Assembly: GCA_001777455.1 (NCBI GenBank)
Contig: MFDZ01000028.1
Location: forward strand, 36,863-57,733
Direction: 5' to 3'
Source of the DNA: Candidatus Daviesbacteria bacterium RIFCSPLOWO2_02_FULL_41_8
GTDB taxonomy: Bacteria > Patescibacteriota > Microgenomatia > Daviesbacterales > UBA10151
Length of the DNA: 20,871 bases
The notes under the pieces: generated by a model
Told to the model about the DNA's origin: nothing
Seen by the model: the letters and a program-made list of their open reading frames with translations, nothing else
Databases searched by the model: none
Translations under genes and position numbers: made by a program
Part shown: piece after piece, positions 665 to 15,308 of the stretch
Numbering within the stretch: the first letter of the stretch is position 1
Layout of the letters: the number at the start of each line of letters is the position of its first letter

Positions 665-1600
665 TTACGAAAGCGTCAGTTCTTCCTCAAAATTACTTTT
701 GTATCTCTCACAAAATTCCCGGACAGTAAAACTGTGATTAGTTGTACCATATTTTTCTATCGCGTAACAAGACGCAACTCCGCCCATTTGTCCGCAGATT
801 TGCAGGTCCAACTCTTTAGTAAAACCGGCCAAAAAGCCGGCCCGGTAAGCATCCCCGGCGCCGGTCGGATCCAGCACCTGGTTTGGTTTGGCGGCCGGGA
901 TTTGTAAATTTTGGTCCTGTGTTTGGATGATAGAACCTTTTTCACCCAAAGTGGTGATCAGGATTTTAACCTGTTCCAGCAGCCCCTTATCATCCAGCAT
1001 CAACTTTTCTTTGAGTAAACTGATTTCATAATCATTGCCGATTAAAATCTCGGCACCACTTAACATATCTTTTAAGTCTCCGGGAGAGAGAGCCGGCAGC
1101 TGCATGCCGGGATCTAACATATAAGGAATCTTTAATTGCTGAGCTTCTTGACATAATTTGATCATAGCCGCCGGGTTATTGGGAGAAATTACCGCGAAAT
1201 CTGTTTTTGCATCTTTTAAAGATAGCCTGTCAGCGTACTCCATTGCCCCCGGGTAAAAGGCGGTGATTTGATTATCTGCCTTATCCGTCATAATAAAAGC
1301 GGAAGAAGTTAAGTTGTTATCAATGGTTTGAATCCCGGAAATGTCCACTCCGGCATCTTGCAAAAATTTGGCATAATCCAAAAAATCCGCCCCTACTACC
1401 CCGGCTATTTCCACCGGAGTATCGAGTAATCCTAAATTGTAGGCAATATTGCCGGCAGTACCGCCTTTTTGTTTGGTTAAAGTGTTGACTAAAAAGGATA
1501 AATTAATCTGGTGGATTTTATCCGGCATGATGTGATCGGAGAATTTTCCTGGAAAATCCATAATATGATCAAAAGCCAGTGAGCCGGTTACTGTAATCAT
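665..1600 (-). CDS. PfkB-family sugar/nucleoside kinase, probably adenosine kinase
   Basis: A 311-residue ribokinase-fold protein. It has the N-terminal PfkB signature GGTAGNIAYNLG (about 46-57) and the C-terminal signature LDPTGAGDAYRAGF (about 243-256), with the catalytic Asp at 250 and the GAG anion hole. NDYE near 190 fits the Mg/phosphate region. Members phosphorylate sugars or nucleosides with ATP. Adenosine is the likely substrate because the next gene downstream encodes adenosylhomocysteinase, which releases adenosine. The substrate is inferred from context, not read from residues. ATG at 1600 is preferred over a TTG at 1624 because a TATACT box (1613-1608) ends seven bases before it and lies inside the longer reading frame. 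No Shine-Dalgarno site is visible, so the mRNA is probably leaderless. Confidence 0.88.
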   Translation of the reverse strand: MITVTGSLAFDHIMDFPGKFSDHIMPDKIHQINLSFLVNTLTKQKGGTAGNIAYNLGLLDTPVEIAGVVGADFLDYAKFLQDAGVDISGIQTIDNNLTSSAFIMTDKADNQITAFYPGAMEYADRLSLKDAKTDFAVISPNNPAAMIKLCQEAQQLKIPYMLDPGMQLPALSPGDLKDMLSGAEILIGNDYEISLLKEKLMLDDKGLLEQVKILITTLGEKGSIIQTQDQNLQIPAAKPNQVLDPTGAGDAYRAGFLAGFTKELDLQICGQMGGVASCYAIEKYGTTNHSFTVREFCERYKSNFEEELTLS

Positions 1601-1607
1601 TGTTATA

Positions 1608-1613
1608 AGTATA
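1608..1613 (-). promoter_or_regulatory. -10 box of the pfkB/ahcY operon
   Basis: TATACT on the minus strand, ending seven bases before the ATG at 1600. No good -35 is visible 17 bp upstream (TAGCTT). Transcription is expected to start at or next to the start codon. Confidence 0.5.
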
Positions 1614-1647
1614 TATAATTCCAAAAAAGTAAGCTAGATTGAGATTA

Positions 1648-1669
1648 TTCTTCGAGCGAAGTCGAGAAG
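1648..1669. repeat. Short imperfect palindrome
   Basis: CTTCGA (1650-1655) faces TCGAGAAG (1662-1669) around a 6-nt loop, in the divergent gap between the kinase operon and the unknown gene at 1808. It resembles the common CTTCGA-type dispersed bacterial repeats; no function is assigned. The rest of the 1625-1791 gap is AT-rich with nothing else recognisable. Confidence 0.45.
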
Positions 1670-1791
1670 TTACCTGAAAAATATTAATGATTTTTTCTTC
1701 ACACTTTTGAATACAGAATTGGGAAGAAATACAAACGCGCGCAGTTCCTAGTCAAAGATGAGAAAAAAAGTATAGAATTTAAAGTTTGAGA

Positions 1792-1800
1792 TGATATAAT
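1792..1800 (+). promoter_or_regulatory. Extended -10 promoter of the 1808 gene
   Basis: TGA-TATAAT is an extended -10 with the perfect consensus hexamer at 1795-1800. It ends seven bases before ATG 1808 and has no recognisable -35, which predicts a leaderless transcript. Confidence 0.6.
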
Positions 1801-1807
1801 TTTAGGT

Positions 1808-2095
1808 ATGGGTATAACATTTCATCCACCTAGTTTCAGGCAATTTTTAGGTAGTCCTCAAGAGAAGAATAGGTTAGGAAGTCGTGAAGGAGTGGCTTTT
1901 ATCGGGGAAAACTTAGCCGATTTGCCGAGAAGCGATTGGTTTGCGGAAGGCAAACTACTTGAAGTATGTGCTGAAGCAACAGAATACTCAAAATTAAATC
2001 CGGAAGCAAGAATTCTAGTTTTAGAAGTAACTTGTGGTGCAGATTATGCGATAAAAAGACCACGAGAAGGTTTTGGCGGTAAAGAAAGAAGATAG
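1808..2095 (+). CDS. Small protein of unknown function (95 aa)
   Basis: Not recognised as any family. The 95-residue product begins MGITFHPPSFRQFLGS. It has a mildly acidic helical-looking middle (EGKLLEVCAEATEYSKLNP) followed by a beta-like ARILVLEVTCGADYAIKRP segment and a basic tail ending GGKERR. There is no signal peptide or membrane segment. A consensus TATAAT seven bases before the ATG, the same arrangement as several clear genes here, is the main reason to treat it as real. It opens the accessory block of plus-strand small genes and is followed by repeat copy A. It could be a remnant of a longer gene; no homologue-based check was possible. Confidence 0.5.
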   Translation: MGITFHPPSFRQFLGSPQEKNRLGSREGVAFIGENLADLPRSDWFAEGKLLEVCAEATEYSKLNPEARILVLEVTCGADYAIKRPREGFGGKERR

Positions 2096-2127
2096 TCCTT
2101 TTAAGATATAAGTAATCCTCAAAGGTT

Positions 2128-2220
2128 GCAGGCAGAACTTTTAATTTTCCGGCGAAAGACGCAATTTGCACTGAACACAGTCGAAGTGCTTGCCCTGAGT
2201 TTACCGAAAAGGTAAAATTT
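2128..2220 (+). repeat. Accessory-block repeat, copy A (longest)
   Basis: Three parts in order: a GCAGGCAGAACTTTTAATTT lead followed by CCGGCGAAA (2128-2157), an imperfect palindrome GCACTGA-N5-TCGAAGTGC (2168-2189), and a second imperfect palindrome CCCTGAG-N5-CGAAAAGG (2193-2212) ending GTAAAATTT. Copies B (3131-3173), C (4393-4437) and D (5259-5324) keep different subsets of these parts, as if by internal deletion. The copy fills most of the gap before the phosphotransferase gene and contains its likely promoter. Confidence 0.75.
2190..2218 (+). promoter_or_regulatory. Repeat-borne promoter upstream of the APH gene
   Basis: TTGCCC (2190-2195), a 17-bp spacer and TAAAAT (2213-2218), all inside repeat copy A. 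The -10 ends nine bases before ATG 2228 and there is no Shine-Dalgarno site. The spacer is the repeat's imperfect palindrome. The same arrangement occurs in copies B and D. Confidence 0.55.
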
Positions 2221-2227
2221 CTGCAGC

Positions 2228-3124
2228 ATGTCTACAGTTAAAACTAAGATTAGCCCGGAAGAGGTGGTGACCTTTTTGAGGAAAAATGTTTACTCCAGTA
2301 TATCTACAGTAGAGTTTCTAAAAGGAGGAGAGTTGTCTCAAGCTTGCGCATTTTCTACACATAAAGGAGATTTTGTCATTAGGATTAATAAAGATAAATA
2401 TACTTATGAAAAAGATAAGTATGCTTTTGCGAGTTTTGCCGGTGCCGGCATTCCCGTTCCGGAGGTATTGGAAATTGGTAAATTTAATGAACAGTTGTTT
2501 TATGCTATTTCAAAAAAAGCTGTGGGCAAAACCTTTGATCTACTGGATAAAGAAACTGCCATTAAACTTCTTTCGCAACTCATAAACACGTTAAACGAAA
2601 TTCACTCTATAAAATTGGATGATGGCAAATATGGATACTGGGATAGTTTTGGAAAAGCAGAGATTGTCAGCTGGAAGGAATTTATACTGCACAGAGACGA
2701 TAAGTTTGTGAATGCCCATCCAGACGATGATTTTATAAAGAAGCTGCACCAATCAGTTCGGGATCTTGGCGAATATTTGCCGGAGGACAGATATTTAGTT
2801 CATGGCGATTTTGGCTTCAATAATTTAGTCGCAGATGGGGAAACTATTACCGGAGTTTTGGATTGGGGAGAGTCTGTTTATGGTGATTTTATGTATGACG
2901 TGGCCTGGCTTACTTTCTGGCCTTCAGAAGTGCCTTTTGTAGATATCTTTAAAGAACATTATAAAAAGAATAATAAGAAAGTGAAAAATTTTGAGGAAAG
3001 ATTAAGATGTTATCTATTGCAAATAGGACTCGGCTCCCTAGGTTTTTTTGCTAAATCTGAGCAGGAAGATGATTATAATTGGACTAAAGATAAACTGCTT
3101 GGAATGATAAACCGCACTCCCTAA
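2228..3124 (+). CDS. Aminoglycoside/hygromycin phosphotransferase-like kinase (APH family)
   Basis: A 298-residue cytoplasmic protein with the protein-kinase-like APH fold. The catalytic loop is LVHGDFGFNNLV, with Asp194 as the presumed base and Asn199 as a metal ligand. The metal-binding ITGVLDWGE (Asp212) follows, then a YGDFMYDVAWLTFW segment very like hygromycin-B kinases. The N-lobe has GDFVIRINKDKYTYEKDKYA (47-66). Family members transfer ATP phosphate to aminoglycosides, macrolides or ordinary small alcohols, so a resistance role is possible but unproven. Length is normal for the family. It is driven by a promoter inside repeat copy A and is followed by copy B and a lincosamide-nucleotidyltransferase-like gene, giving two antibiotic-modification-type enzymes side by side. 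Confidence 0.85.
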   Translation: MSTVKTKISPEEVVTFLRKNVYSSISTVEFLKGGELSQACAFSTHKGDFVIRINKDKYTYEKDKYAFASFAGAGIPVPEVLEIGKFNEQLFYAISKKAVGKTFDLLDKETAIKLLSQLINTLNEIHSIKLDDGKYGYWDSFGKAEIVSWKEFILHRDDKFVNAHPDDDFIKKLHQSVRDLGEYLPEDRYLVHGDFGFNNLVADGETITGVLDWGESVYGDFMYDVAWLTFWPSEVPFVDIFKEHYKKNNKKVKNFEERLRCYLLQIGLGSLGFFAKSEQEDDYNWTKDKLLGMINRTP

Positions 3125-3130
3125 AAGATA

Positions 3131-3173
3131 CAGGCAGATGCTTGCCCTGAGTTTATCGAAGGGGTAGAATTTG
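3131..3173 (+). repeat. Accessory-block repeat, copy B (shortened)
   Basis: CAGGCAGA joins directly to TGCTTGCCCTGAGTTTATCG and ends GGGGTAGAATTT. Compared with copy A, the first palindrome and most of the lead are missing while the second palindrome and TARAATTT end are kept. It fills the whole gap between the APH and nucleotidyltransferase genes. Confidence 0.75.
3142..3170 (+). promoter_or_regulatory. Repeat-borne promoter upstream of the nucleotidyltransferase gene
   Basis: TTGCCC (3142-3147), a 17-bp spacer and TAGAAT (3165-3170), within repeat copy B. The -10 ends nine bases before ATG 3180, the same gap as in copy A. Confidence 0.5.
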
Positions 3174-3179
3174 TTTCGT

Positions 3180-3677
3180 ATGGAAGCTGAAAGTGTTATT
3201 GAGTTATATAATCTTCTCCAATCAAATGGGATTGAAGTTTGGATTGATGGTGGTTGGGGAATTGATGCGTTGCTTGGAAAGCAAACACGCCCGCATAAAG
3301 ATTTGGATATAGCCATAAATCATAAAGACAAACCAAAACTCCGTAAACTACTCGAAGAAAGAGGATATAAAGACATAGCCCGAGATGACACAAGCGATTG
3401 GAACTTTGTTTTAGGTGACGGAGAGCGGGAGATAGATGTTCACACTTTTGTGTTTGACGAAAAGGGCAATAATATATACGGAGCAGCATACCCAAAGCAG
3501 TCACTTACCGGAACAGGAGCGATTAACGGAGAATCCGTAAAGTGTATTCCTCCCGAATGGGTAGTTAAGTTCCATGCTGGCGCTAAATATGAACCTAAGG
3601 CAAAAGACATCCAGGATGTAAATGCCGTATGTGATAAATTTGGCCTAAAACCACCAGAAAATTATAAAAGATCCTAA
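3180..3677 (+). CDS. Lincosamide nucleotidyltransferase-like protein
   Basis: A 165-residue nucleotidyltransferase. The opening EVWIDGGWGIDALLGKQTRP followed by HKDLDIAI closely matches the LnuA/LinA and aminoglycoside-adenylyltransferase group. The likely metal-binding acids are Asp41 and Asp43 (HKDLDIAI) and Asp86 (REIDVHTF). Known relatives add AMP to lincosamides or related drugs, but many environmental members are uncharacterised, so drug modification is an inference. Length is normal for LnuA-type proteins (about 160 residues). ATG at 3180 is preferred over TTG at 3171 because the codons before it fall between the repeat-borne -10 box and the expected transcription start. It follows the APH gene within the repeat-separated block. 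Confidence 0.85.
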   Translation: MEAESVIELYNLLQSNGIEVWIDGGWGIDALLGKQTRPHKDLDIAINHKDKPKLRKLLEERGYKDIARDDTSDWNFVLGDGEREIDVHTFVFDEKGNNIYGAAYPKQSLTGTGAINGESVKCIPPEWVVKFHAGAKYEPKAKDIQDVNAVCDKFGLKPPENYKRS

Positions 3678-3697
3678 AATTTGCCAATTTGTTCCTT

Positions 3698-3719
3698 GCT
3701 TTTTAGCCTCAGAAATACT
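3698..3719 (+). repeat. Direct repeat S1 (22 bp)
   Basis: A 22-bp sequence with core AGCCTCAGAAATACT (3705-3719), matching 5158-5179 at 21 of 22 positions. It begins 20 bp after the nucleotidyltransferase stop. S1 and S2 bracket a 1.46-kb segment containing the genes at 3835 and 4563. Confidence 0.75.
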
Positions 3720-3746
3720 ATAAAATCTGTGAGCACCCTTTTTTAC

Positions 3747-3760
3747 TAATTTGCAAATTA
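3747..3760. promoter_or_regulatory. Perfect 14-bp palindrome, possible operator
   Basis: TAATTTGCAAATTA reads the same on both strands and ends 38 bp before the TTGCCT -35 box of the downstream gene. It could bind a dimeric regulator, but AT-rich palindromes of this size also arise by chance. Confidence 0.3.
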
Positions 3761-3798
3761 TTGCCAGCTATTGACCAATTACGTGGTAAACCTATAGT

Positions 3799-3827
3799 TT
3801 GCCTTTTATCCTCTAAATCGCTATAAT
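3799..3827 (+). promoter_or_regulatory. Promoter of the 3835 gene
   Basis: TTGCCT (3799-3804), a 17-bp spacer and the consensus TATAAT (3822-3827). The -10 ends seven bases before ATG 3835 and there is no Shine-Dalgarno site, which predicts a leaderless transcript. Confidence 0.65.
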
Positions 3828-3834
3828 AGTCAGT

Positions 3835-4380
3835 ATGTTTATTGGCTACTCCCCTGAGAGAAGTGAGTTAACAGAGAAACTATCAGCCCGCCGGAATATA
3901 TTACTGCATGCTGGTGGAGACAGAGTTGATGCTTTTGACGAGATCGGGAAGATGCCCGGAATGGAAGTTATTGAGCGTTTTGATTCGGCAAATAGTCATT
4001 ATTTTGATTGCCGGGATTATGTTTTTGGCCGAAGAAGAAGGGAAAAATGGTATGACCCCCGCAGTGACGCCTTAGAAGAAACAATGTTGGGACATCCGGC
4101 TAACTTTTTAATCTCTCAAGGCTATAATCATACAGAAACTCCCCTTAGTGGTGATGTAGCAGTCTATATTCATAATCCTTCATGGTATCCAGGTCCCAGA
4201 GCTGCCCATTGGGGTATTTATGATCAGGGAAAAGTTATTTCAAAATTTGGTGCAGGACATGTTTATCGCCATAGCTTTGATCTCGTCCCCAACTTTTATG
4301 GGAATAGGGTTTTATTCTTCCATCCCCCCACTCCCAGGAGGATGAAAATCTGGGCTTGGTTTAGGAGGCTATTGGATTAA
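3835..4380 (+). CDS. Unknown protein, possibly NlpC/P60-like (papain-like fold)
   Basis: A 181-residue soluble protein with no signal peptide. The second half, SGDVAVYIHNPSW (105-117), AAHWGIYDQGKVISKFGAG (123-141) and YRHSFDLVP (144-152), resembles the strand pattern of uncharacterised NlpC/P60-like domains, where a GD(V/I) strand precedes an HxG strand. On that reading Cys59 (YFDCRDYVFG), His125 and possibly His146 could form the active site. This assignment is by pattern only and is weak. A consensus promoter lies seven bases upstream. It sits with a NYN nuclease gene between the direct repeats S1 and S2. If the fold is right it could cleave peptide or amide bonds inside the cell; a toxin or effector role would be speculation. 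Confidence 0.6.
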   Translation: MFIGYSPERSELTEKLSARRNILLHAGGDRVDAFDEIGKMPGMEVIERFDSANSHYFDCRDYVFGRRRREKWYDPRSDALEETMLGHPANFLISQGYNHTETPLSGDVAVYIHNPSWYPGPRAAHWGIYDQGKVISKFGAGHVYRHSFDLVPNFYGNRVLFFHPPTPRRMKIWAWFRRLLD

Positions 4381-4392
4381 ATTTTCAAATAA

Positions 4393-4437
4393 GCAGGTAG
4401 AGCTTTTAATTTTCCGGCGAAAAGGGCAAGATTTGCA
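4393..4437 (+). repeat. Accessory-block repeat, copy C (lead only)
   Basis: GCAGGTAGAGCTTTTAATTT then TCCGGCGAAAAGGGCAAG, matching the lead section of copy A (2128-2164). The two promoter-like palindromes are absent. It lies just after the stop of the 3835 gene. Confidence 0.65.
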
Positions 4438-4470
4438 AGATCTGGTTGAATTCTCTTACAAATCACTGAC

Positions 4471-4499
4471 TTGACCTTAAAAGCTTGCTAAGTTATAAT
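4471..4499 (+). promoter_or_regulatory. Promoter upstream of the terminator-like hairpin and NYN gene
   Basis: TTGACC (4471-4476), a 17-bp spacer and TATAAT (4494-4499), the best two-box match in the accessory block. The expected start near 4506 lies only a few bases before the hairpin at 4513-4540. Confidence 0.65.
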
Positions 4500-4512
4500 T
4501 AATACATAAACG

Positions 4513-4546
4513 CCTCACCTAGTGCGCAAGCCCGGTGAGGTTTTTT
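4513..4546 (+). terminator. Intrinsic terminator-like hairpin between promoter and NYN gene
   Basis: A perfect 7-bp stem, CCTCACC (4513-4519) with GGTGAGG (4534-4540), followed at once by six T (4541-4546). It sits about 7 nt after the predicted start of the 4471-4499 promoter and 10-16 nt before the NYN start codon. It would therefore either attenuate NYN expression or end a transcript of roughly 40 nt. Confidence 0.65.
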
Positions 4547-4547
4547 G

Positions 4548-4556
4548 TGGCATAAT
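4548..4556 (+). promoter_or_regulatory. Possible second (extended -10) promoter of the NYN gene
   Basis: TGG-CATAAT ends six bases before ATG 4563, in the position of the other leaderless promoters here, but has no -35. If active it would bypass the terminator just upstream. Confidence 0.35.
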
Positions 4557-4562
4557 ATGTTT

Positions 4563-5150
4563 ATGTCCAACTGTATCCTGTTTATCGACGGAGAGAATTT
4601 TCTTCATAAGGTAGAAGAAGTTATTGGAAAAGAGCAAGCTGTTAGAGACTCAAACAGGATTGTTAGTATTGATTTAGACAAATTATTTAATCTTCCGCTG
4701 AAAGGGTTAAGGATCACAAGAAAGATATTTTATGCTTCCAGGTTGCATCTTCATCCTGAAACAAAAAGAAAATCTGAACAGCTGATAAGGCTTCAAAGAA
4801 AGCTAAGAAACAATTTAGTAAAACTGGGGTATGAATTTATCATTGCTGGAAATGTTAGGGCCCAAAAAGTAAATGGAAAAATAATTTTTAGAGAAAAAGG
4901 AGTGGATGTCAAAATTGCCGTAGATATGGTGTCTCTGGCTTGTGATAAAAAATTGGCAACGGCCATCCTTTGTAGTTCGGATTCTGATCTTCAGCCTGCT
5001 ATTTCCGAAGTTAAAAATAGGAATGTTGAAGTAGTATATTTGGGATTTGAGAATAATCCTAATAAGGGCTTGACCTATACTACAAATAGAACAATCTTAC
5101 TTAGGAATTCAGAAGTCTTGGCATCTTTATCCCAAAGAAAAAAGGCCTAA
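4563..5150 (+). CDS. NYN-domain (LabA/DUF88-type, PIN-like) nuclease
   Basis: A 195-residue protein with the three acidic clusters of NYN nucleases: LFIDGENF (Asp9), FREKGVDVKIAVDMV (Asp115, Asp121) and ILCSSDSDLQPAI (Asp140, Asp142). Family members are metal-dependent RNases of PIN-like fold, often acting in RNA turnover or defence. The bacterial LabA-like branch is mostly uncharacterised. ATG 4563 is preferred because it gives the motif its usual position and follows the CATAAT box. ATG 4557 and TTG 4545 are in frame but overlap that box or the terminator. It is preceded by a promoter plus terminator-like hairpin, an unusual arrangement that suggests regulated read-through. It is followed seven bases later by repeat S2. 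Confidence 0.85.
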   Translation: MSNCILFIDGENFLHKVEEVIGKEQAVRDSNRIVSIDLDKLFNLPLKGLRITRKIFYASRLHLHPETKRKSEQLIRLQRKLRNNLVKLGYEFIIAGNVRAQKVNGKIIFREKGVDVKIAVDMVSLACDKKLATAILCSSDSDLQPAISEVKNRNVEVVYLGFENNPNKGLTYTTNRTILLRNSEVLASLSQRKKA

Positions 5151-5157
5151 AGCCCCA

Positions 5158-5179
5158 GCTTTTCAGCCTCAGAAATACT
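5158..5179 (+). repeat. Direct repeat S2 (22 bp)
   Basis: Second copy of S1 (3698-3719), with core AGCCTCAGAAATACT at 5165-5179. It begins seven bases after the NYN stop codon. The two copies are in the same orientation, 1.46 kb apart. Confidence 0.75.
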
Positions 5180-5218
5180 GGAAACAAAAAAACTCTTTTA
5201 GTTAAGATTTCATTTGTA

Positions 5219-5255
5219 CCACGATCGTGGGATATTTGTTACACCTCGGAGGTGT
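5219..5255. repeat. Two adjacent perfect palindromes
   Basis: CCACGATCGTGG (5219-5230) is a perfect 12-bp palindrome. ACACCTC-G-GAGGTGT (5241-5255) has perfect 7-bp arms. They lie between repeat S2 and repeat copy D, upstream of the gene at 5344. The second resembles the CACCT/AGGTG hairpin inside murB (15031-15067) and may belong to the same family; the first could be an operator. Confidence 0.55.
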
Positions 5256-5258
5256 GAT

Positions 5259-5324
5259 AAATAGAGCTTTCCTCTTCCGGCGAAAAAACATTTGCACTGA
5301 GCACAGTCAAAGTGTAAAATTTGC
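5259..5324 (+). repeat. Accessory-block repeat, copy D
   Basis: A diverged lead (TAAATAGAGCTTTCC then TCTTCCGGCGAAAA) followed by the first palindrome TTGCACTGA-N5-TCAAAGTG and the GTAAAATTT end. Relative to copy A the second palindrome is missing. It ends 19 bp before ATG 5344. Confidence 0.7.
5292..5320 (+). promoter_or_regulatory. Repeat-borne promoter upstream of the 5344 gene
   Basis: TTGCAC (5292-5297), a 17-bp spacer and TAAAAT (5315-5320), within repeat copy D. The -10 ends 23 bases before the ATG, so a short leader of about 16 nt is expected rather than a leaderless mRNA. Confidence 0.5.
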
Positions 5325-5343
5325 TCATAAAAGTAGCATCTTA

Positions 5344-5973
5344 ATGAAAAAAACTAGTATTGAGTTTATACAAAAAACAGTTACGGAATTAGAGAATGGA
5401 GCAACAGATAGGAGAAGTATTTTCTACCTGTATACAATATTAAGGGAGGAATTTAAGGAGAATTGTGATAGTGCCTGCGAGTTCATTATTGATATAGGTG
5501 ACTTCATGGCTCATTCCCAGAAGCGTAAGCGAGGAGATGCGTTTGATAAAGTTAACAGGTTCGCAACAGCTCTACTTAGTTTTACTAAAACTTCTGATCC
5601 TAATATTCCACTTATATTAAAACCTCTGGACGATTTATTATTTACTCAGACACAACTTATGGGTGAAACAATTAAAGCGTTGGAGTGTATTGGGAATATT
5701 AATTTTAATAAGGGGAAATTACTAACAAGATCTGAAGCTCTTATGGTTAGTGTAATGGAGAATTTAGCGGGAACAGAATTTTTAATTGAGGATAAAGACA
5801 ATTATGTGTGTAAGTTTTCTGATGTTGAATTCGATCAAGAAGGTAATAAATGTCTTTATGTTAGTATAGAAAGTTCTTTAGCTGGGATTCAACCGCGCAC
5901 ACTTACTCCTCGGTTAATTTTAAGTGACGGGGGGAGCATTCGTTGCTTAGCGTTAAAAACATTTTCATCTTGA
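5344..5973 (+). CDS. Unknown protein (209 aa)
   Basis: Not recognised. The product starts MKKTSIEFIQKTVTELENGA and has a mainly helical-looking N-terminal two-thirds, with a Lys/Arg patch SQKRKRGD near 59-66. The C-terminal beta-rich stretch contains VCKFSDVEFDQEGNKCLYV. There is no signal peptide or membrane segment, so it is probably cytoplasmic. The frame is open back to 5227, but the extra codons are repeat copy D. ATG 5344 is therefore chosen, and the repeat-borne TTGCAC-17-TAAAAT promoter lies just before it. It ends the accessory block, converging with a minus-strand nucleotidyltransferase gene 10 bp away. The sequence offers no functional hint. Confidence 0.6.
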   Translation: MKKTSIEFIQKTVTELENGATDRRSIFYLYTILREEFKENCDSACEFIIDIGDFMAHSQKRKRGDAFDKVNRFATALLSFTKTSDPNIPLILKPLDDLLFTQTQLMGETIKALECIGNINFNKGKLLTRSEALMVSVMENLAGTEFLIEDKDNYVCKFSDVEFDQEGNKCLYVSIESSLAGIQPRTLTPRLILSDGGSIRCLALKTFSS

Positions 5974-5983
5974 TGAATAATAT

Positions 5984-6415
5984 TTAAATAGGTTTTGAGG
6001 AAGAAGGAGGCAATGTGCTGAGTAGAGATTGTAAAATACCGTTCTTGTCATAGAGAATTTTTGCTCCGTCTGAAATTACCCGTTTGGTTCCCGGATCAGT
6101 CGGATCTGTCTTGGCCCATTCGGGAGTAGCGATGCCGAATTCTATTTCCAGGCCACTTTCATAAAATACTCTTTTTGACTGAACCAGACCCCAGTCTTCA
6201 TTTTTAATTTCCTTAATTTGCCCGAAGTTTTGTAGCCACTGGACGTCTTCTAAAAGTGATTTTGGATCATTAGTAATAATTACCAGATCAATATCGGAAT
6301 CCGGTTTGGCCGTGCCCTTGGCGTATGAACCGACCAAAGCAACTGCCTTAATATTATCCTGACTTGTTGCCCATTGCTTAAATTCCTCTAAAAATAGATT
6401 GACTACTTCTTTCAT
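5984..6415 (-). CDS. Small MNT-type nucleotidyltransferase-domain protein
   Basis: A 143-residue protein whose core is VALVGSYAKGTAKPDSDIDL (26-45). This is the GSxxxGT...SDxDL signature of the polymerase-beta nucleotidyltransferase superfamily, with metal-binding Asp41 and Asp43. A later LEIEFGIA stretch supplies a possible third acid. Such proteins include antitoxin-type adenylyltransferases paired with HEPN proteins and drug-adenylylating enzymes. No HEPN partner is adjacent, so neither role is supported. The start lies eight bases after the vanW stop with no Shine-Dalgarno site, so it is probably the second gene of that operon. It is distinct from the LnuA-like protein at 3180 in both motif and length. 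Confidence 0.8.
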   Translation of the reverse strand: MKEVVNLFLEEFKQWATSQDNIKAVALVGSYAKGTAKPDSDIDLVIITNDPKSLLEDVQWLQNFGQIKEIKNEDWGLVQSKRVFYESGLEIEFGIATPEWAKTDPTDPGTKRVISDGAKILYDKNGILQSLLSTLPPSSSKPI

Positions 6416-6423
6416 ATGGGGGG

Positions 6424-8178
6424 TTATTGGGTTCCGACCAGGTATACTGCCTGCCAGGGTTTGTAGTTGGATTTCCAGACTTCATTAAGTAATGTTTCCC
6501 CGTTTCTGGTAACAGTTCTTTTGAAGATAACAGTGGCGCCCCAGGCTGACCAGTCCACCTGTTTGACTGTACCTTTGGGTAAAGTCGGGTCGTCTTGTCG
6601 GAGTTCCGGCGGCGGCGGAGTTTGATTGCTGACTATTGGTTTAGTTAAACTAACAACTCTTCCGTCCGGCGTGCCGTATAAATCAAAATACAGCGTAGTG
6701 CCGGAAGTATAGGCCTGAATTAAAATATGGGCCGGCGTGTCGTTTTTAAACTGGAAATCCACACTGGGGTAAAAAACTGTCGCATCCAGCCCCGGCGGAA
6801 AACCCTGTTCGTAGTAACTAACCCGGTAGGCATGGGCGGTCCTTTTGACTATCGGCAGTCCGGCATTTAAGACGGCCCGGAAGAGAGTGGTGGAATCCTG
6901 GCAAACTCCGCCGCCGTCATCCAACACCGTCCGGCCGCCCTTAATCACATAAGCTTGTTTAAATCCGGTGGCGGCGGAAATATCACCGATGGTCCGATTA
7001 AAAGAAAAAACTTCCCCGGGAGGAACCAGCGTTCCGGTGATTTTCCCGGCAGTTAAGCCGACATTGTAAATCCTATTGGGGATCGATCCGGCAAAGTTGG
7101 AGATCCCCCGGCCCAGCAGTTCCTTAATACCTAAGCTGTTTACATCGGAGGTGGCGATTTTCGGTTTGACAATATCAACCGGCAGGGGAATATTTTTTAC
7201 CGTGCCGCCGGAGATGGCTTCTGTCAGCAGTTCATAGGCTTGATTTAGGTTTAATCTGCGGCCTTCCTGGGAGGGCTTGAAAGCGGTGACCCGTTTTGTT
7301 TCCGGATTAAATTCAAATAAACCTTCCTGGACATTTTGGTCAATTTCCGCGGCCATCGTTTTCAAATAAATATAAGCCTGGTCTTTATCCAACAATAAGT
7401 TGTCGCCTTTGGTCAGGCCCAAAAGGGTTAACAGTTGCTTGGCGTCTAACACCCAGGTTTTGTCTCCGTAAGTTAGTTTGACCGGTTCCTGTATGAGTGT
7501 TTCCAACGCTTCCTTGGCCCGGATCACTTGGTTAGTGGTAACGGTGGGCGGAACAGTTTTTACAGGCAGCTCCGAATTATACTCTCCGGTTAATAAAAAA
7601 TCCGAGACCGTTCTTAAAACAGTATTTCTATCCAGTGCCCGGCCATTAACCCCTTCTTTAATTTGGATATTGGCAGAAGGAGAGCCTTGCGGAGTGGGCG
7701 TTTCGTCAAAAATCAGTTGTGCATTTTGCGGCGGCTGGTCAATTTGAGCGGCAATATTGTCCAGTTGTTTGTCCAGGGATAGATAAATTTTGGGTTGGAT
7801 TTTGTGAGGAACAAATAAGGTTTGCAGCTGTTTGCCGGCGCGCTCCCAAGGTGTCCCCCGACGACTGTCGTCAAAACTAGAAATAAGACTAGAATAGTCC
7901 AAGGCGGCTGAGGCGGTGGCCGGGTCAATGGTTAACCCGTTAAATTCCAGTTTTTGTTGCAGTCTTTGCTCAAAGTTGGCCTGCACTTTCCTGATGGCTT
8001 GCCCTTCAGTTAAAAAAGAAATATTAGCGTTTCCCGTAAAAGTAAGGGGATAGAATTTATCGGCCATAATCAGCTGATAGGTAATCGTGGTTAAAATTAG
8101 CAGAACAGCAGAGAGAATAATCGGCAGTAAGCTTTTTTTAAAAAATTTTAAACGGGATTTTTTCTTTTTTTTAGCCAC
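6424..8178 (-). CDS. VanW-family membrane-anchored envelope protein
   Basis: A 584-residue protein. A Lys/Arg-rich N-terminus (AKKKKKSRLKFFKK) precedes one membrane helix (about 16-38), leaving the rest outside. Two regions resemble peptidoglycan-binding-4-type repeats (about 170-210 and 295-345). A VanW domain follows (about 355-510) with FNRTIGDIS, DGGGVCQDSTTLFRAVLNAG and HAYRVSYYEQGFPPGLDATVF, and then a small G5-like beta tail. VanW proteins are associated with cell walls and some glycopeptide-resistance clusters, but their activity is not established. GTG 8178 is chosen over GTG 8193 because a TACAAT box (8190-8185) overlaps the longer version and ends six bases before 8178. It heads an operon with the small nucleotidyltransferase. 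Confidence 0.9.
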   Translation of the reverse strand: MAKKKKKSRLKFFKKSLLPIILSAVLLILTTITYQLIMADKFYPLTFTGNANISFLTEGQAIRKVQANFEQRLQQKLEFNGLTIDPATASAALDYSSLISSFDDSRRGTPWERAGKQLQTLFVPHKIQPKIYLSLDKQLDNIAAQIDQPPQNAQLIFDETPTPQGSPSANIQIKEGVNGRALDRNTVLRTVSDFLLTGEYNSELPVKTVPPTVTTNQVIRAKEALETLIQEPVKLTYGDKTWVLDAKQLLTLLGLTKGDNLLLDKDQAYIYLKTMAAEIDQNVQEGLFEFNPETKRVTAFKPSQEGRRLNLNQAYELLTEAISGGTVKNIPLPVDIVKPKIATSDVNSLGIKELLGRGISNFAGSIPNRIYNVGLTAGKITGTLVPPGEVFSFNRTIGDISAATGFKQAYVIKGGRTVLDDGGGVCQDSTTLFRAVLNAGLPIVKRTAHAYRVSYYEQGFPPGLDATVFYPSVDFQFKNDTPAHILIQAYTSGTTLYFDLYGTPDGRVVSLTKPIVSNQTPPPPELRQDDPTLPKGTVKQVDWSAWGATVIFKRTVTRNGETLLNEVWKSNYKPWQAVYLVGTQ

Positions 8179-8184
8179 GCCGAT

Positions 8185-8213
8185 ATTGTACACGAGTTTT
8201 ACACTCCTGTCAT
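8185..8213 (-). promoter_or_regulatory. Promoter of the vanW operon
   Basis: ATGACA (8213-8208), a 17-bp spacer and TACAAT (8190-8185) on the minus strand. The -10 ends six bases before GTG 8178. The -35-like ATGACA comes largely from the end of the half-repeat at 8209-8243. Confidence 0.6.
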
Positions 8214-11237: not shown

Positions 11238-13781
11238 ATGCCCAACCAAAAAGGATTTGCCCATCTGTTCATCCTGTTTGCTGCTTTAGGAATTATTGTC
11301 TTCCTGTTAGTTTCCTCCATGGCCCCTTTTAAAGATAAGCTGTTTTCCTTCCTGTACCCTAAACCCTCATCTTTTGCTGAGTCAATAAATACTGAGCCAT
11401 ATGGGGTCAATGACTGGAACTGGATTGATGATTCTATGCTCGGGATGCAGGAGATGGGAGCAAAATGGATGAGGGTAATGGTTAACTGGTCCAGCATTGA
11501 AGCCACCCAGGGAACATATAACTGGAGCCAAGGAGCCAACAATAATCTGGACTTCTATTTTAACCAGGCTCAAAAGTACGGCATGAAAATAAGCGCTTCT
11601 GTTTACAATGCTCCAGCCTGGGCCAAGCAGCCAGGTCTGAGCGAACCTCAACCTGATCTTTATGCTAATCTGCTCAAAGCCTTTATTCAAAAGTATCCGG
11701 GGAAAATTGCTGCCATTGAGATTTTAAATGAAGAAAATACCGGAGGCTGTTGGCCGGTAGCCAAATGCCGGGATTCTATTTATTATATTCCGGTCTTAAA
11801 ATCCGCTTACCAAGCTGTTAAGTCGGCTGACCCGAATATAATAGTTACTACCTCCGGGTTGTGGGCAAACCCGACAGGTTACCTGGAAGATCTTTATTTA
11901 ATGGGAGCCAAAGGCTCTTTTGACGCGGTTAACTTCCACTATTATCCGGGTAAAAATGCACCCTCTGGGAGTTATACCTGGCTCATCAGCCACTTCCGGA
12001 AGGTGATGGAAAAATACGGTGATGGGGATAAGCCTATTTGGCTGACTGAATTTGGCTGGAATATTACCGATGAACAACAAAATGCCAATAATATCGTCTC
12101 TCCCCAAGAGCAGTCAGATTACATGAGCTATGTCCTGGATAAATCAATGAAATCCGGCTTTGTCAACAAGGTTTTCTGGTATGACCATCACGGTGATGAT
12201 GGGATGACTTTAATCCATACCACCAACAACTACTCTTGGAATACGCTGCAGCCAACTTTGGTAAGCTCCCTAGGAGCCGGAGATACCTCTTTGGTCGTAT
12301 CAAATACCACCGTAAAAAACGGGGCACCCCAAACAGCTGACTGGACTAGAAATTGGCCCAAAGACGGAGTATTGCAAGTTGATAACGAAAAGATAGGCTA
12401 TACTTCGCTCACATCGGCAAATGGCAATACCACTGTTTCAGGGTTGACCAGGGGTGCAGGCAGTACCACAGTTGTCAGTCATGCCCAAGACACAAGAGTT
12501 TTAAATCTGGATTTAACAGCTAACTTTAAAAGACAGGCCTTTTATACTTACAAAAACTTTATCCAGGCAAATCCAACCTGGTCATCCTCTCAGGTTGCTA
12601 CTTTGCCTGATGTTCCTCCTCCGGCTTCAGCAGCCATCCCGCTTTCTAATGCCGGCTTTGAATCAGGCATCACTGATTGGCTGGGCAGTTTGACAATTGA
12701 TTCTACCCAGGGTCATTCCGGCACGTCTTCAGCCAAAGTAGTGAATACTACCGGCGCTGTGGTCAGAGGCTGGCATCAGGCCGTTCCTGTTGAACCGGGC
12801 AAGTCATATTTTATCAAAGGCTGGGTTAAAATTGATCCTGCAGGCAGCGGCAATATGAATGCCATGATTACGGTTGACGCACAAGATGCTTCAGGGAAGT
12901 ATTTAACCGGAGGCCCGTCCAATTATTATATTTATGATACGGAAGGTACATGGAGAGAGGTCCATTATCCTTTTAAAACACCGGATAATGCCGGCAGGTT
13001 AGTTGTTTATCTCTCTACGGACACAGGTACTGGCACTGCCTGGTTTGATGATATATCTATTGAACCATATGATCTTTCCATTCCCACACCAACACCCACA
13101 CCAACACCCACACCAACACCAACCCCGACACCTAGTCCTACATCTACTCCACTCCCTACTCCAACTCCAACACCAACGCCAACACCAACCCCGACACCTA
13201 GTCCTACATCTACTCCACTCCCTACTCCAACTCCAATAGGCGATACGCAACATCCAACAGTTCCCACAAATGTTTTAGTCGTTGCTATTTCTTCCTCCCA
13301 GATTAACCTATCCTGGAATCCTTCTACAGACAATGTGGGAGTAGCAGGCTATGATATTTACAGGAACAGCGTCAAGGTAGCTACGATTACTACCACCTCC
13401 TATGGTGATGCTAATTTGCTACCCTCCGCCACTTACTCATACTTTGTAAAGGCCTTTGATAAAGCTGGTAATATTTCCGCCTCCTCCAATACTGCATCAG
13501 CTACCACTAAATCTCCACCCCAGGCAACCGGAGCCATTTCCGGGACAGTTTTTTCCTCTGTCAGTGGAGTACTTAAAAGGGCCACGATTTCAACTCTGGT
13601 TAATGGCTCTAGGCGATCTGTTACCGCTAACTCATTAGGTGTCTACATCTTGTCCAACCTGCCGCCGGCCACTTATTCTGTTAATTATCATTACTCAGGT
13701 TATCAGGATCAGAAAATTAATGTGACAGTAAATTCCGCCCAGACCACTACTAAAAATGTGACTCTGATTAAAAGGAGGTAA
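11238..13781 (+). CDS. Exported multidomain glycoside hydrolase (clan GH-A type)
   Basis: An 847-residue exported protein. The N-terminus, [20 protein letters not shown], is a membrane/signal segment. Residues 50-330 form a TIM-barrel hydrolase with [15 protein letters not shown], the acid/base motif EILNEEN (Glu165) and the nucleophile motif WLTEFGWN (Glu271), as in clan GH-A families such as GH5 and GH39. A beta domain of about 80 residues (344-424) comes before what looks like the last barrel helix ([13 protein letters not shown]). Then follow a CBM4/9-like domain (467-606), a Thr-Pro linker (617-667), a fibronectin type III domain (669-756) and a carboxypeptidase-regulatory-like domain (765-847). 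It probably cleaves extracellular polysaccharide at the cell surface. Exact family and substrate are not readable. Confidence 0.9.
13111..13242 (+). repeat. 66-bp tandem duplication encoding a Thr-Pro linker
   Basis: Two nearly identical 66-bp units (13111-13176 and 13177-13242) encode a 22-residue block of TPTP followed by SPTSTPLP. A shorter run of the 12-bp unit ACACCAACACCC precedes them. It separates the carbohydrate-binding and fibronectin domains as a stiff extracellular linker. The near-identity at DNA level points to recent slippage or duplication. Confidence 0.85.
13774..13779 (+). promoter_or_regulatory. Strong Shine-Dalgarno site of the cupredoxin gene
   Basis: GGAGGT ends six bases before ATG 13786 and overlaps the stop codon of the hydrolase gene. 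This full-strength site shows that the organism uses Shine-Dalgarno initiation for downstream operon genes. Confidence 0.8.
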
Positions 13782-14284: not shown

Positions 14285-15301
14285 TTAAATTAAGGGTGGA
14301 AGGTTGATTAGTTGGACTTCGGGTTCTAAGATAATGCCGAATTTTGTCTTTACCTTTTCCACATAAGTTTTGGCTAAATCATAAAAAGCTTTGGCGGTTC
14401 CGGTGCCCTGATTAATAAATAAATTAGCATGATAGTCTGCAATCTTGATGCCATCTAAGCTTTGTCCTTTGGCGCCGACTTCTTCCAGCAGTGCTCCTGC
14501 CGGAAGTTTGCCATAAACAATTTTTTCCGGAGGAATATTTTTTAGGATTTCTTCCGGAATTTCCGAAGCCACTAAATTCTTGAAAAAACTACCCGGGCAT
14601 TTTATCCCGGGAGGATATTTAATCAGTCTTTTTGATAAAACTTCCTGGGCTTCCTCTGAAAGCGTTTTTGGGTCTCCCGGTTCAAGTCGGAAAGTAATTT
14701 CTAAAATAGTATCATGAGTCTTTTTGAAGATGCTGTCACGGTAACTAAATTGACAATCCTGTTTTGTCATCCCGTACTTGATACGGGATCCATATAAATT
14801 ATTGGTATAGATTCCTGCTTTCGCAGGAATGACAGAAGAGGGGTTCAGGGCAACAACAGAGATGATGTGGTCAGAAATTGTTTGGCCGTAGGCACCGGCA
14901 TTGCCGTAAACCGCACCGCCAACAGTACCCGGAATGCCGGATAGTTTTTGTAAACCAGAGAGTCCATGGTTAATGGCGTAATCAACCAGTTCCTGGAGTG
15001 GGGTTCCGCTTTGAACACTCAACGCAACTGCACCTTCCAGGTGTCTGCGTTGTTCACCTGGAAGGTGTCTGTGTATGCCGGAGGTTTCATTTTTGATTAT
15101 CAGAAAATCAACTCCTTCGTCGGCCACTAATAAATTGCTCCCTCCGCCGATTACCAGATATGGTATTTGTTGTGCTTTAGCGTATTGGATAGCCTCTATC
15201 AATTCTTCCTGAGTGGTAACTACTGTAAACTTTTTAGCCGGACCACCGATCTGTAAGGTAGTTACTTTACTCATCGGAAAATTATCTTCAAGTTTTTGCA
15301 T
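14285..15301 (-). CDS. murB: UDP-N-acetylenolpyruvoylglucosamine reductase with repeat-derived insertions
   Basis: A 338-residue FAD enzyme of peptidoglycan synthesis that reduces the enolpyruvyl group to make UDP-MurNAc. It shows the FAD-binding VIGGGSNLL (51-59) and GIPGTVGGAVYGNAGAYG (122-139), SYRDSIFK (Arg188), the proton-donor segment PGSFFKN (Ser238) and the C-terminal LEPEVQLI (Glu328). Two stretches are foreign to the family. HRHLPGEQRRHLEG (77-90) is encoded by a perfect hairpin, and SSVIPAKAGIYTNNLYGS through GMT (155-179) is encoded by a 68-bp dispersed repeat. Removing both gives about 300 residues, the usual size. The reading frame stays open throughout, so it is probably functional. 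ATG 15301 is chosen because TATAAT ends seven bases before it. Confidence 0.93.
   Translation of the reverse strand: MQKLEDNFPMSKVTTLQIGGPAKKFTVVTTQEELIEAIQYAKAQQIPYLVIGGGSNLLVADEGVDFLIIKNETSGIHRHLPGEQRRHLEGAVALSVQSGTPLQELVDYAINHGLSGLQKLSGIPGTVGGAVYGNAGAYGQTISDHIISVVALNPSSVIPAKAGIYTNNLYGSRIKYGMTKQDCQFSYRDSIFKKTHDTILEITFRLEPGDPKTLSEEAQEVLSKRLIKYPPGIKCPGSFFKNLVASEIPEEILKNIPPEKIVYGKLPAGALLEEVGAKGQSLDGIKIADYHANLFINQGTGTAKAFYDLAKTYVEKVKTKFGIILEPEVQLINLPPLI
14766..14833. repeat. 68-bp two-hairpin repeat inside murB
   Basis: Inverted ends GTCATCCC and GGAATGAC flank two perfect 8-bp stems: ATCCCGTA/TACGGGAT (14769-14776 with 14782-14789) and ATTCCTGC/GCAGGAAT (14811-14818 with 14823-14830). Both hairpins recur in the element at 543-658. 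It is read in frame through murB, contributing VIPAKAGIY and neighbouring residues between two conserved parts of the enzyme. Confidence 0.9.
15031..15067. repeat. Perfect 13-bp inverted repeat inside murB
   Basis: CACCTTCCAGGTG (15031-15043) and CACCTGGAAGGTG (15055-15067) are exact reverse complements with an 11-bp loop. Each arm is itself nearly palindromic (CACCT-TCC-AGGTG). It encodes an Arg/His-rich insertion in a variable loop of MurB and resembles the ACACCTC/GAGGTGT palindrome at 5241-5255. Confidence 0.8.
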
Positions 15302-15308
15302 AAGCATT

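Follow-up and report, generated by a model that had tools for sequence, protein, structure and literature searches.

The repeats dispersed through an accessory-gene block of Candidatus Daviesbacteria bacterium RIFCSPLOWO2_02_FULL_41_8 are, we conclude with moderate confidence, the junctions of a short cassette-like array, some of which would double as promoters; the array occupies a variable site flanked by a PfkB-type kinase gene and a VanW-like gene. The block of six genes lies in a stretch of 20,871 nt from contig MFDZ01000028.1 (hereafter, the window). An earlier note on this DNA had described the repeat as a palindrome carrying a ready-made promoter in front of three of the genes. Comparison with related sequences shifts the emphasis: the −10 box is part of an inter-gene junction element common to the accessory-gene arrays of several Daviesbacteria-type genera. 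The genomes of Candidate Phyla Radiation (CPR) bacteria are very small, and little is known of the routes by which accessory genes enter them. The genome containing the window (989,227 bases, 84.68% complete) was compared with 44 others of the order, all 45 standing under one family label, and open reading frames in the window and in the compared loci were called mechanically.

The junction element consists of 2 halves, with the consensus ATCTGGTAATTTTCTCCCAAAAGTCCTAAAATTTGC and variants in alignments of relatives. The 5′ half begins within about 10 nt of the upstream stop codon in most copies read, and the 3′ half ends in TAAAATTTGC, at a variable distance from the next start codon. Palindromes, sometimes nested, are found between the halves, but the TAAAATTTGC end is also present in junctions devoid of any palindrome, as illustrated by ...CACAAAAAAGGGTAAAATTTGC in genome G014 versus ...CACAAAAAAGAGC-palindrome-TAAAATTTGC in G029. 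An exact scan for the core CCCAAAA-N1-8-TAAAATTTGC yielded 8 matches in 6 of the 45 genomes, against 1 match in the control. The nhmmer model of the element, R1, produced hits with E below 1e-5 in 13 genomes (7 seed genomes and 6 others) and, at E up to 0.01, in 29, although the weak rows are unreliable singly. In the window, the best R1 match is at 3666-3684 (E 0.0076). Two observations tie the copies in the window to the wider family: the end of contig G003:C39 carries a bridging copy, in which a typical 5′ half is joined to the window-type AGAGCTT...GCGAAAA...GGTAAAATTTG, and a second junction motif, TTAGCCTCAGAAATANTATAAAATC, occurs both in the window and in the PfkB-VanW gap of the congener G037, where TTAGCCTCAGAAATACTATAAAATC recurs with one difference. 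Among GTDB species genomes, in a search that may leave out records near the genome under study, 3 of the 4 loci with a module of the type of copy D were named Candidatus Daviesbacteria and 1 of 4 Gottesmanbacteria. A dense array, with about 10 junctions, spans L116:10600-15872 (G029:C1); there, an insertion sequence-type transposase gene (rve domain, 11377-12825) lies between the 2 halves of one junction. At L120:9158-9262 (G017:C23), palindromes appear by eye to be nested within one another in a single junction. Other identities were considered and rejected for the element: no Rfam match was found at E up to 1 over 1600-6500 of the window (structured RNA), viral contigs held no exact match of the element core or module (phage element), and 2096-2227 had no plasmid match.

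The box pairs at copies A, B, and D are exactly where the earlier note had placed them (Table 1), and the distances it gave from the −10 box to the start codon, 9 nt for A and B and 23 nt for D, are correct. The pattern TTGCMC-N17-TARAATTT occurs 3 times in the window, compared with a mean of 0.00 in 100 dinucleotide shuffles; these 3 are its only occurrences in the genome, and the reversed pattern has none. It also holds that copy A contains both palindromes, copy B having the second type only and copy D the first. The suggestion that B and D are alternative internal deletions is less apt; the copies more plausibly reflect separate insertions of different palindromes at a single position immediately 5′ of TAAAAT. 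The 17-bp spacing follows in part from the palindrome itself, whose length hardly varies and whose outer arms run into both boxes. Copy C lacks a palindrome, but its 37-nt upstream unit (starting at 4393) matches that of copy A (starting at 2128) at 86%.

The palindrome is best described as a common dispersed repeat resembling repetitive extragenic palindromic (REP) sequences. The pattern CMCTGAGN3-6TCGAAG has 251 matches (113 forward and 138 reverse) in 39 of the 45 genomes, with a single control match. In a sample of 60 drawn from the listed rows of these matches, leaving out the known modules G004:C2, G012:C18, and G029:C1:12209, none was followed on its 3′ side, within 5 nt, by TARAAT or TATAAT, and 7 had TTG on the 5′ side; therefore, the palindrome alone is not a promoter. 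A check of these 60 by eye for GTAG/CGTC tags found that the 5′ side often reads GTTTA or CTTG/CCTG. A looser genome scan (CTGAN4-8TCGAA) was uninformative, with 22 matches versus 40 in the control, and the module scan CGAAGN0-6TARAATYTG was noisy (33 versus 21), so only rows with recognizable arms were taken further. The palindrome was absent within approximately 1.5 kb of all 4 Y1_Tnp genes of the genome under study and in that genome shows no association of the kind seen between REPs and their transposases (RAYT). Hairpins resembling CACCT...AGGTG stand beside some Y1 genes (L004-L007) and recur by eye in junction regions, including 5241-5255 of the window; they are a better candidate than the studied palindrome for the REP of the Y1 transposases themselves.

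Where a palindrome does adjoin a −10 box (12 modules, 3 of them from the window), the outer arms pair across the boxes, TTGYAC with GTRTAA, and the boxes are 17 bp apart in 10 modules and 18 bp in 2; a spacing of 18 was also found in one further relative (G035:C23). Although resting on few modules, the analysis shows that the stem is kept in 91.7% of cells, a value reached in 2 of 500 shuffles, and that pairing falls to 26-45% when the partners are slid. The same pair occurs in C-G, U-A, and U-G forms, and 4 cells are doubly changed (3 of 500 shuffles). Template-switch repair of palindromes could also keep the arms alike.

Genes in this group appear to be preceded by a characteristic promoter arrangement. 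Under the crude rule that the first in-frame ATG is the start, TATAAT-like boxes lie 6-9 nt upstream of the start 77 times before 359 genes (120 codons or longer) in the retrieved loci, compared with 10 at the same offsets intragenically, and Shine-Dalgarno-like motifs precede 37 of these genes. In a larger set of loci, 117 of 464 genes have a TATAAT-like box 5-9 nt from the start, and 19 of the 117 have TTG at a spacer of 17 bp, against 0-5 at each other spacer from 8 to 29. Once the 12 genes with repeat-like upstream sequences are set aside, TTG is still found at 17 bp in 14 of 105, with 0-4 at spacers 14-16 and 18-21. Copies A and B fit this native grammar, with a box 6-9 nt from the start and TTG 17 bp further upstream, and are thus credible leaderless promoters; copy D, with its boxes 23 nt from the start codon, is less so, and its transcript would begin with a short leader.

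The check proposed in the earlier note comes out positive, with junction boxes showing a bias in orientation and distance relative to start codons. The set comprised 43 junction boxes, i.e., 42 of the 57 listed plus copy A; the 15 dropped by eye lacked element context, and 4 of these had a start within 30 nt. A start codon (ATG or GTG opening a frame of at least 50 codons) lies 5-11 nt downstream of 13 of the 43, versus 4.4% for positions taken at random and 76 of 1117 for other hexamers resembling TATAAT. Within 5-30 nt, the count is 18 of 43 versus 14.7% of random positions. In the backward direction, the corresponding numbers are 0 and 1 of 43. Hence the idea that the repeat supplies a promoter stands in part: boxes, spacing, and start distance fit the grammar of the host group, but the palindrome itself does not provide the −10 box. 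A promoter function is likely for A and B, and it would belong to the junction rather than to the palindrome.

The arrays behave in several respects as sets of exchangeable units. Within each of 8 array loci, all nhmmer hits at E up to 0.1 (29 of 29, many of them seeds of the model) point one way. Locus L116, which has 9 junction hits, includes frames of 212, 67, 116, 66, and 63 aa on the opposite strand, and the 116-aa frame has a counterpart in G039 in the same relation to its junction (75.6% identity over 401 nt); thus, junction direction does not track gene direction. A strand count of 50:9 is partly a matter of construction, because the array loci were turned so that their junctions read forward. 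A DUF4258/DUF2283 unit is shared by G013 and G029, which represent 2 genera; its homology extends from GTAAAATTTGC to the following TAAAATTTGC (85.6% over 506 nt), and its neighbors differ between the 2 genomes. Similarly, the matches of a HicA-gene pair (G014/G017) and of a DUF2283 unit (G012/G013/G029) end inside or beside a junction. Of the 68 blastn matches that are 150 nt or longer, 3 end at the box in both loci, where random shifting gave a mean of 0.036 and at most 2 in 500 trials, and 1 has both ends at boxes, against 0.0 by random shifting; the test is crude and the numbers are small.

The site itself is variable in the genus. Between the tblastn ends of PfkB and VanW, the gap measures 7, 7, 65, 143, 247, and 265 nt in 6 of 11 congeners (the 7-nt gaps being those of G031 and G041, and one of the 4 longer gaps containing a run of N), and 1105, 1347, 1749, 3826, and 4730 nt, filled with other sequence, in the remaining 5. 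The filling in G037 has a junction-type motif and a palindrome. The S-adenosylhomocysteine hydrolase gene adjoins the PfkB gene in 10 of the 11, and the stretch of the 11th stops short of that point. None of the 6 block genes, nor the border nucleotidyltransferase, was found in the PfkB-VanW stretches of the 11 congeners (tblastn, E up to 1e-3). Against a library of defence proteins, gene 5 matched HEC-09 (E 3.7e-11) and NYN (1.1e-9) and the nucleotidyltransferase matched PDC-S09 (6.1e-10); gene 3 reached only E 0.0074, and the remaining 4 block genes had no match in that library.

Table 1. Features of the accessory block and its borders (window coordinates).
Feature	Position	Strand	Remarks
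Left border, PfkB-type kinase gene (PF00294)	665-1600	−	Conserved
Accessory gene 1	1808-2095	+	95 aa; no Pfam match; own TATAAT ends 7 nt 5′ of ATG
Copy A of the junction element	2128-2227	+	Upstream unit 2128-2164; start codon at 2228
Copy A palindromes	2165-2188 and 2190-2212	+	In tandem; followed by TAAAAT 2213-2218
Predicted leaderless sigma-A-type promoter A	2190-2218	+	TTGCCC-17-TAAAAT; 9 nt to ATG 2228
Accessory gene 2	2228-3124	+	APH-type phosphotransferase family (PF01636, E 2.8e-23)
Copy B, short junction	3126-3179	+	Single palindrome 3142-3164
Predicted promoter B	3142-3170	+	TTGCCC-17-TAGAAT; 9 nt to ATG 3180
Accessory gene 3	3180-3677	+	Aminoglycoside-2''-adenylyltransferase (ANT-like) family (PF10706, E 2.4e-29)
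Junction after the ANT-like gene	3666-3727	+	3′ half of the element (3666-3684) overlaps the stop codon; no palindrome
Second part of that junction, TTAGCCTCAGAAATACTATAAAATC	3703-3727	+	Diverged relative at 5158-5184
Accessory gene 4	3835-4380	+	181 aa; DUF7689 below threshold; own TATAAT ends 7 nt 5′ of ATG
Copy C	4393-4436	+	Upstream unit and diverged 3′ half; no palindrome
Accessory gene 5	4563-5150	+	NYN-domain protein (PF01936, E 4.3e-18)
Perfect palindrome ACACCTCGGAGGTGT	5241-5255		Similar hairpins beside Y1 transposase genes of the same genome (by eye)
Copy D	5261-5324	+	Shorter upstream unit 5261-5286; one palindrome 5290-5314
Copy D boxes	5292-5320	+	TTGCAC-17-TAAAAT; 23 nt to ATG 5344
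Accessory gene 6	5344-5973	+	209 aa; no Pfam match
Right border, VanW-like protein gene (PF04294)	6424-8193	−	Conserved; present in every genome of the genus searched (12 of 12)

Two further features of the window deserve mention. Upstream of the NYN gene, 4471-4499 reads TTGACC-17-TATAAT (11 of 12 positions) and is followed by what by eye is a GC-rich hairpin with a T run (within 4471-4560), a possible small RNA or attenuator. Another dispersed palindrome, with the core GTCATTCCTGCGAAAGCAGGAATC, forms a 41-nt inverted repeat at 537-577 and 14799-14839 (93% complementary), one arm of which falls inside a MurB-type frame (14285-15307).

Tyrosine recombinases (PF00589) are encoded in all 45 genomes. 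The attC end consensus of integrons is RYYYAAC ... GTTRRRY; these sequences were absent from the ends of all 15 elements examined, one of which had an internal match. The 10 representative recombinases scanned (8 genomes, including the one under study) scored no more than 125.3 bits on the integron integrase model TIGR02249, whose cut-off is 265, and by their sequences are Xer-like. The recombinase at L274 (G013) passes NF040815, an archaeal XerA model that also mentions integron integrase in its description (223.4 versus 220). A canonical integron was rejected, with no IntI-grade integrase among these 10, no attC ends, and no significant fold in the bare element; most of the integron features checked were not borne out, but the sites with E up to 0.1 do share one orientation within each locus. 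In G035:C23, a recombinase frame lies approximately 0.8 kb from a lone module (TTGCCC-18-TAAAAT, 9 nt to ATG); this recombinase was discarded as the actor, being of a common type by sequence and on a contig without the junction element (best E 0.09). Pairs of tyrosine recombinase genes 5-8 kb apart were seen at L107-L112 (G033, G028, G012, G025, G041, and G037); they too were discarded, the 6 loci giving one weak junction hit at E up to 5 (L110, E 4.1).

We propose that a junction comprises a 5′ half just after the upstream stop codon and, ahead of the gene that follows, a 3′ half whose end is TAAAATTTGC. Recombination at junctions would let genes come, go, and change order as units. The common REP-like palindromes lie between the two halves, in many cases immediately upstream of TAAAAT. 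The group appears to use leaderless promoters, so the 3′ half could double as the −10 box of any gene that runs in the same direction; a palindrome inserted there would supply TTG at the right distance. A and B would therefore probably be working promoters of the APH-like and ANT-like genes. A more specific version, which we put forward tentatively and hold to be rather less than probable, is that Daviesbacteria possess an integron-like system of their own, in which a recombinase other than IntI would cross over within TAAAATTTGC, the box would serve as a leaderless −10, and the palindromes would tune or fold the site.

Several results weigh against the cassette-like interpretation. Among the array genomes of the 45, no tyrosine recombinase gene lies next to an array (in G028, the 2 on the array contig are more than 40 kb away), and recombination between the repeats could therefore be passive. 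The bare element has no significant fold (z from −1.9 to +0.8 in 5 elements), with 6 palindrome-filled relatives ranging from −1.4 to +1.1; in the window, copies B, C, and D lie between −0.7 and −0.4 and copy A reaches −2.2/−2.5. R1 scores the window copies weakly (E 0.19 for D, 0.59 for A, 1.7 for C, and 1.8 for B), so they are assigned to the family by the 3′ half they share, by where they lie, and by the bridging copy. Two hits with E above 0.1 oppose the others of their locus (L122, E 0.46; L120, E 1.1). The reverse complement of a G-rich motif, AGTTTTTGGRGG, resembles the junction 5′ half; the motif itself runs opposite to the junctions at 9 of 9 places in 7 of the 10 loci scanned (L116, L117, L118, L119, L122, L125, and L156); because it has no TAAAATTTGC 3′ half, it was treated as a separate element and left uncounted. 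Only one blastn match is clean at both ends, and all 3 box-end matches involve the same unit, in genomes that are mostly fragmented assemblies. In the stem, the number of pairs with a double change (116 of 500 shuffles) and of further pair types (67 of 500) is unremarkable. Finally, a start codon 5-30 nt downstream is missing from 25 of the 43 junctions.

This last count bears equally on the earlier note's view that the repeat is a mobile palindrome with both −35 and −10 boxes, kept since it switches on the next gene. Such a portable promoter is suggested by the boxes at native spacing in A, B, and D, by relatives in G004, G029, G112, G016, and G039 that have boxes with starts 7-11 nt away, by the start-codon bias of the junction boxes, by the conserved stem spanning both boxes, and by the lone module of G035:C23, which has no junction element. 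A pure promoter element would not, though, predict so many junctions lacking a start. Several junctions precede opposite-strand frames, and no palindrome is needed for the TAAAATTTGC end, which belongs to a separate inter-gene element. Together with the sampled palindromes elsewhere, all 60 lacking a −10 box, and with block genes 1 and 4, which have a TATAAT of their own, these data make the portable promoter unlikely.

The orientation of the junctions speaks to 2 other explanations. If they were miniature transposable elements moved by Y1 or other transposases independently of genes, random insertion should give both orientations, and 0 of the 29 hits at E up to 0.1 oppose their locus. Near its ends, copy A does carry an imperfect inverted repeat, GCAGAAcTTTTA...TAAAAtTTCTGC (11 of 12 positions complementary, by eye), and nested palindromes and the 4 Y1_Tnp genes of the genome would suit such elements, but the Y1 loci are without the palindrome; we judge this account improbable. 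An ordinary hot spot, in which illegitimate or homologous recombination uses dispersed intergenic repeats as mere homology, with no dedicated system and with native promoters beside REP-like palindromes, accords with the lack of a recombinase beside the arrays, the absence of a significant fold in the bare element, and the commonness of REP-like repeats, and elements are also thinly spread in long gene stretches common to several genomes. It fits less well with a fixed junction orientation among frames running both ways, with 5′ halves by the stop codon and 3′ halves near the start in unrelated genes, and with a two-ended match at a 10-nt box, and we regard it as rather unlikely.

If a junction is at once a recombination site and a promoter, that would explain how a group with leaderless promoters can read a captured gene immediately, and a cassette system would exist outside the integron family. 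In an integron-like system proper to Daviesbacteria, every gene captured in the right orientation would be expressed immediately, without a shared array promoter. Should the recombination part not hold, the promoter grammar still offers a usable rule for start annotation in this order. Among the matches listed for literature on integrons and attC cassettes in Patescibacteria, CPR, Microgenomates, and Archaea, and on clusters of attC sites lacking integron-integrases (CALIN), no such system was present.

Leaderless sigma-A promoters occur in Deinococcus and actinobacteria. Those predicted here resemble them in the TATAAT-like box 6-9 nt from the start and in the few Shine-Dalgarno-like motifs, whereas the box here is part of a repeated junction element. 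YchF promotes leaderless translation, according to a remark in PMC12641178, and the accessible text of PMC6851277 holds nothing on leaderless mRNA in CPR. As in REP sequences (GTAG/CGTC families), the palindromes are imperfect, approximately 20 nt long, and dispersed, but here they occupy a fixed position within a second element. PMC3733652 describes REPs that have inserted into other palindromes and also raises, without a test, the possibility that REPs serve as promoters under some conditions.

The arrays resemble integron arrays and CALIN in that the units are mostly one or two small accessory genes, the inter-gene sites share one orientation and have conserved outer parts and a variable palindromic center, genes are sometimes reversed, and contigs end in arrays. 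The units here include DUF4258/DUF2283, HicA, BrnT, and antibiotic-enzyme families. According to PMC9024848, attC sites are variable in sequence but conserved in structure, and similar sites complicate assembly; the variable terminal structure of attC is described in PMC8946536. The arrays studied here differ in having no integrase among the 10 recombinases scanned, no attC ends, and a bare element with no significant fold, and, unlike attC, the site itself carries a −10 box. On Acinetobacter plasmids, the pdif (Xer) modules consist of accessory genes flanked by short sites; the junctions differ from these in that the complementary parts are outermost rather than around a 6-bp core. The Correia elements of Neisseria are short repeats with promoter boxes and resemble the junctions in this respect.

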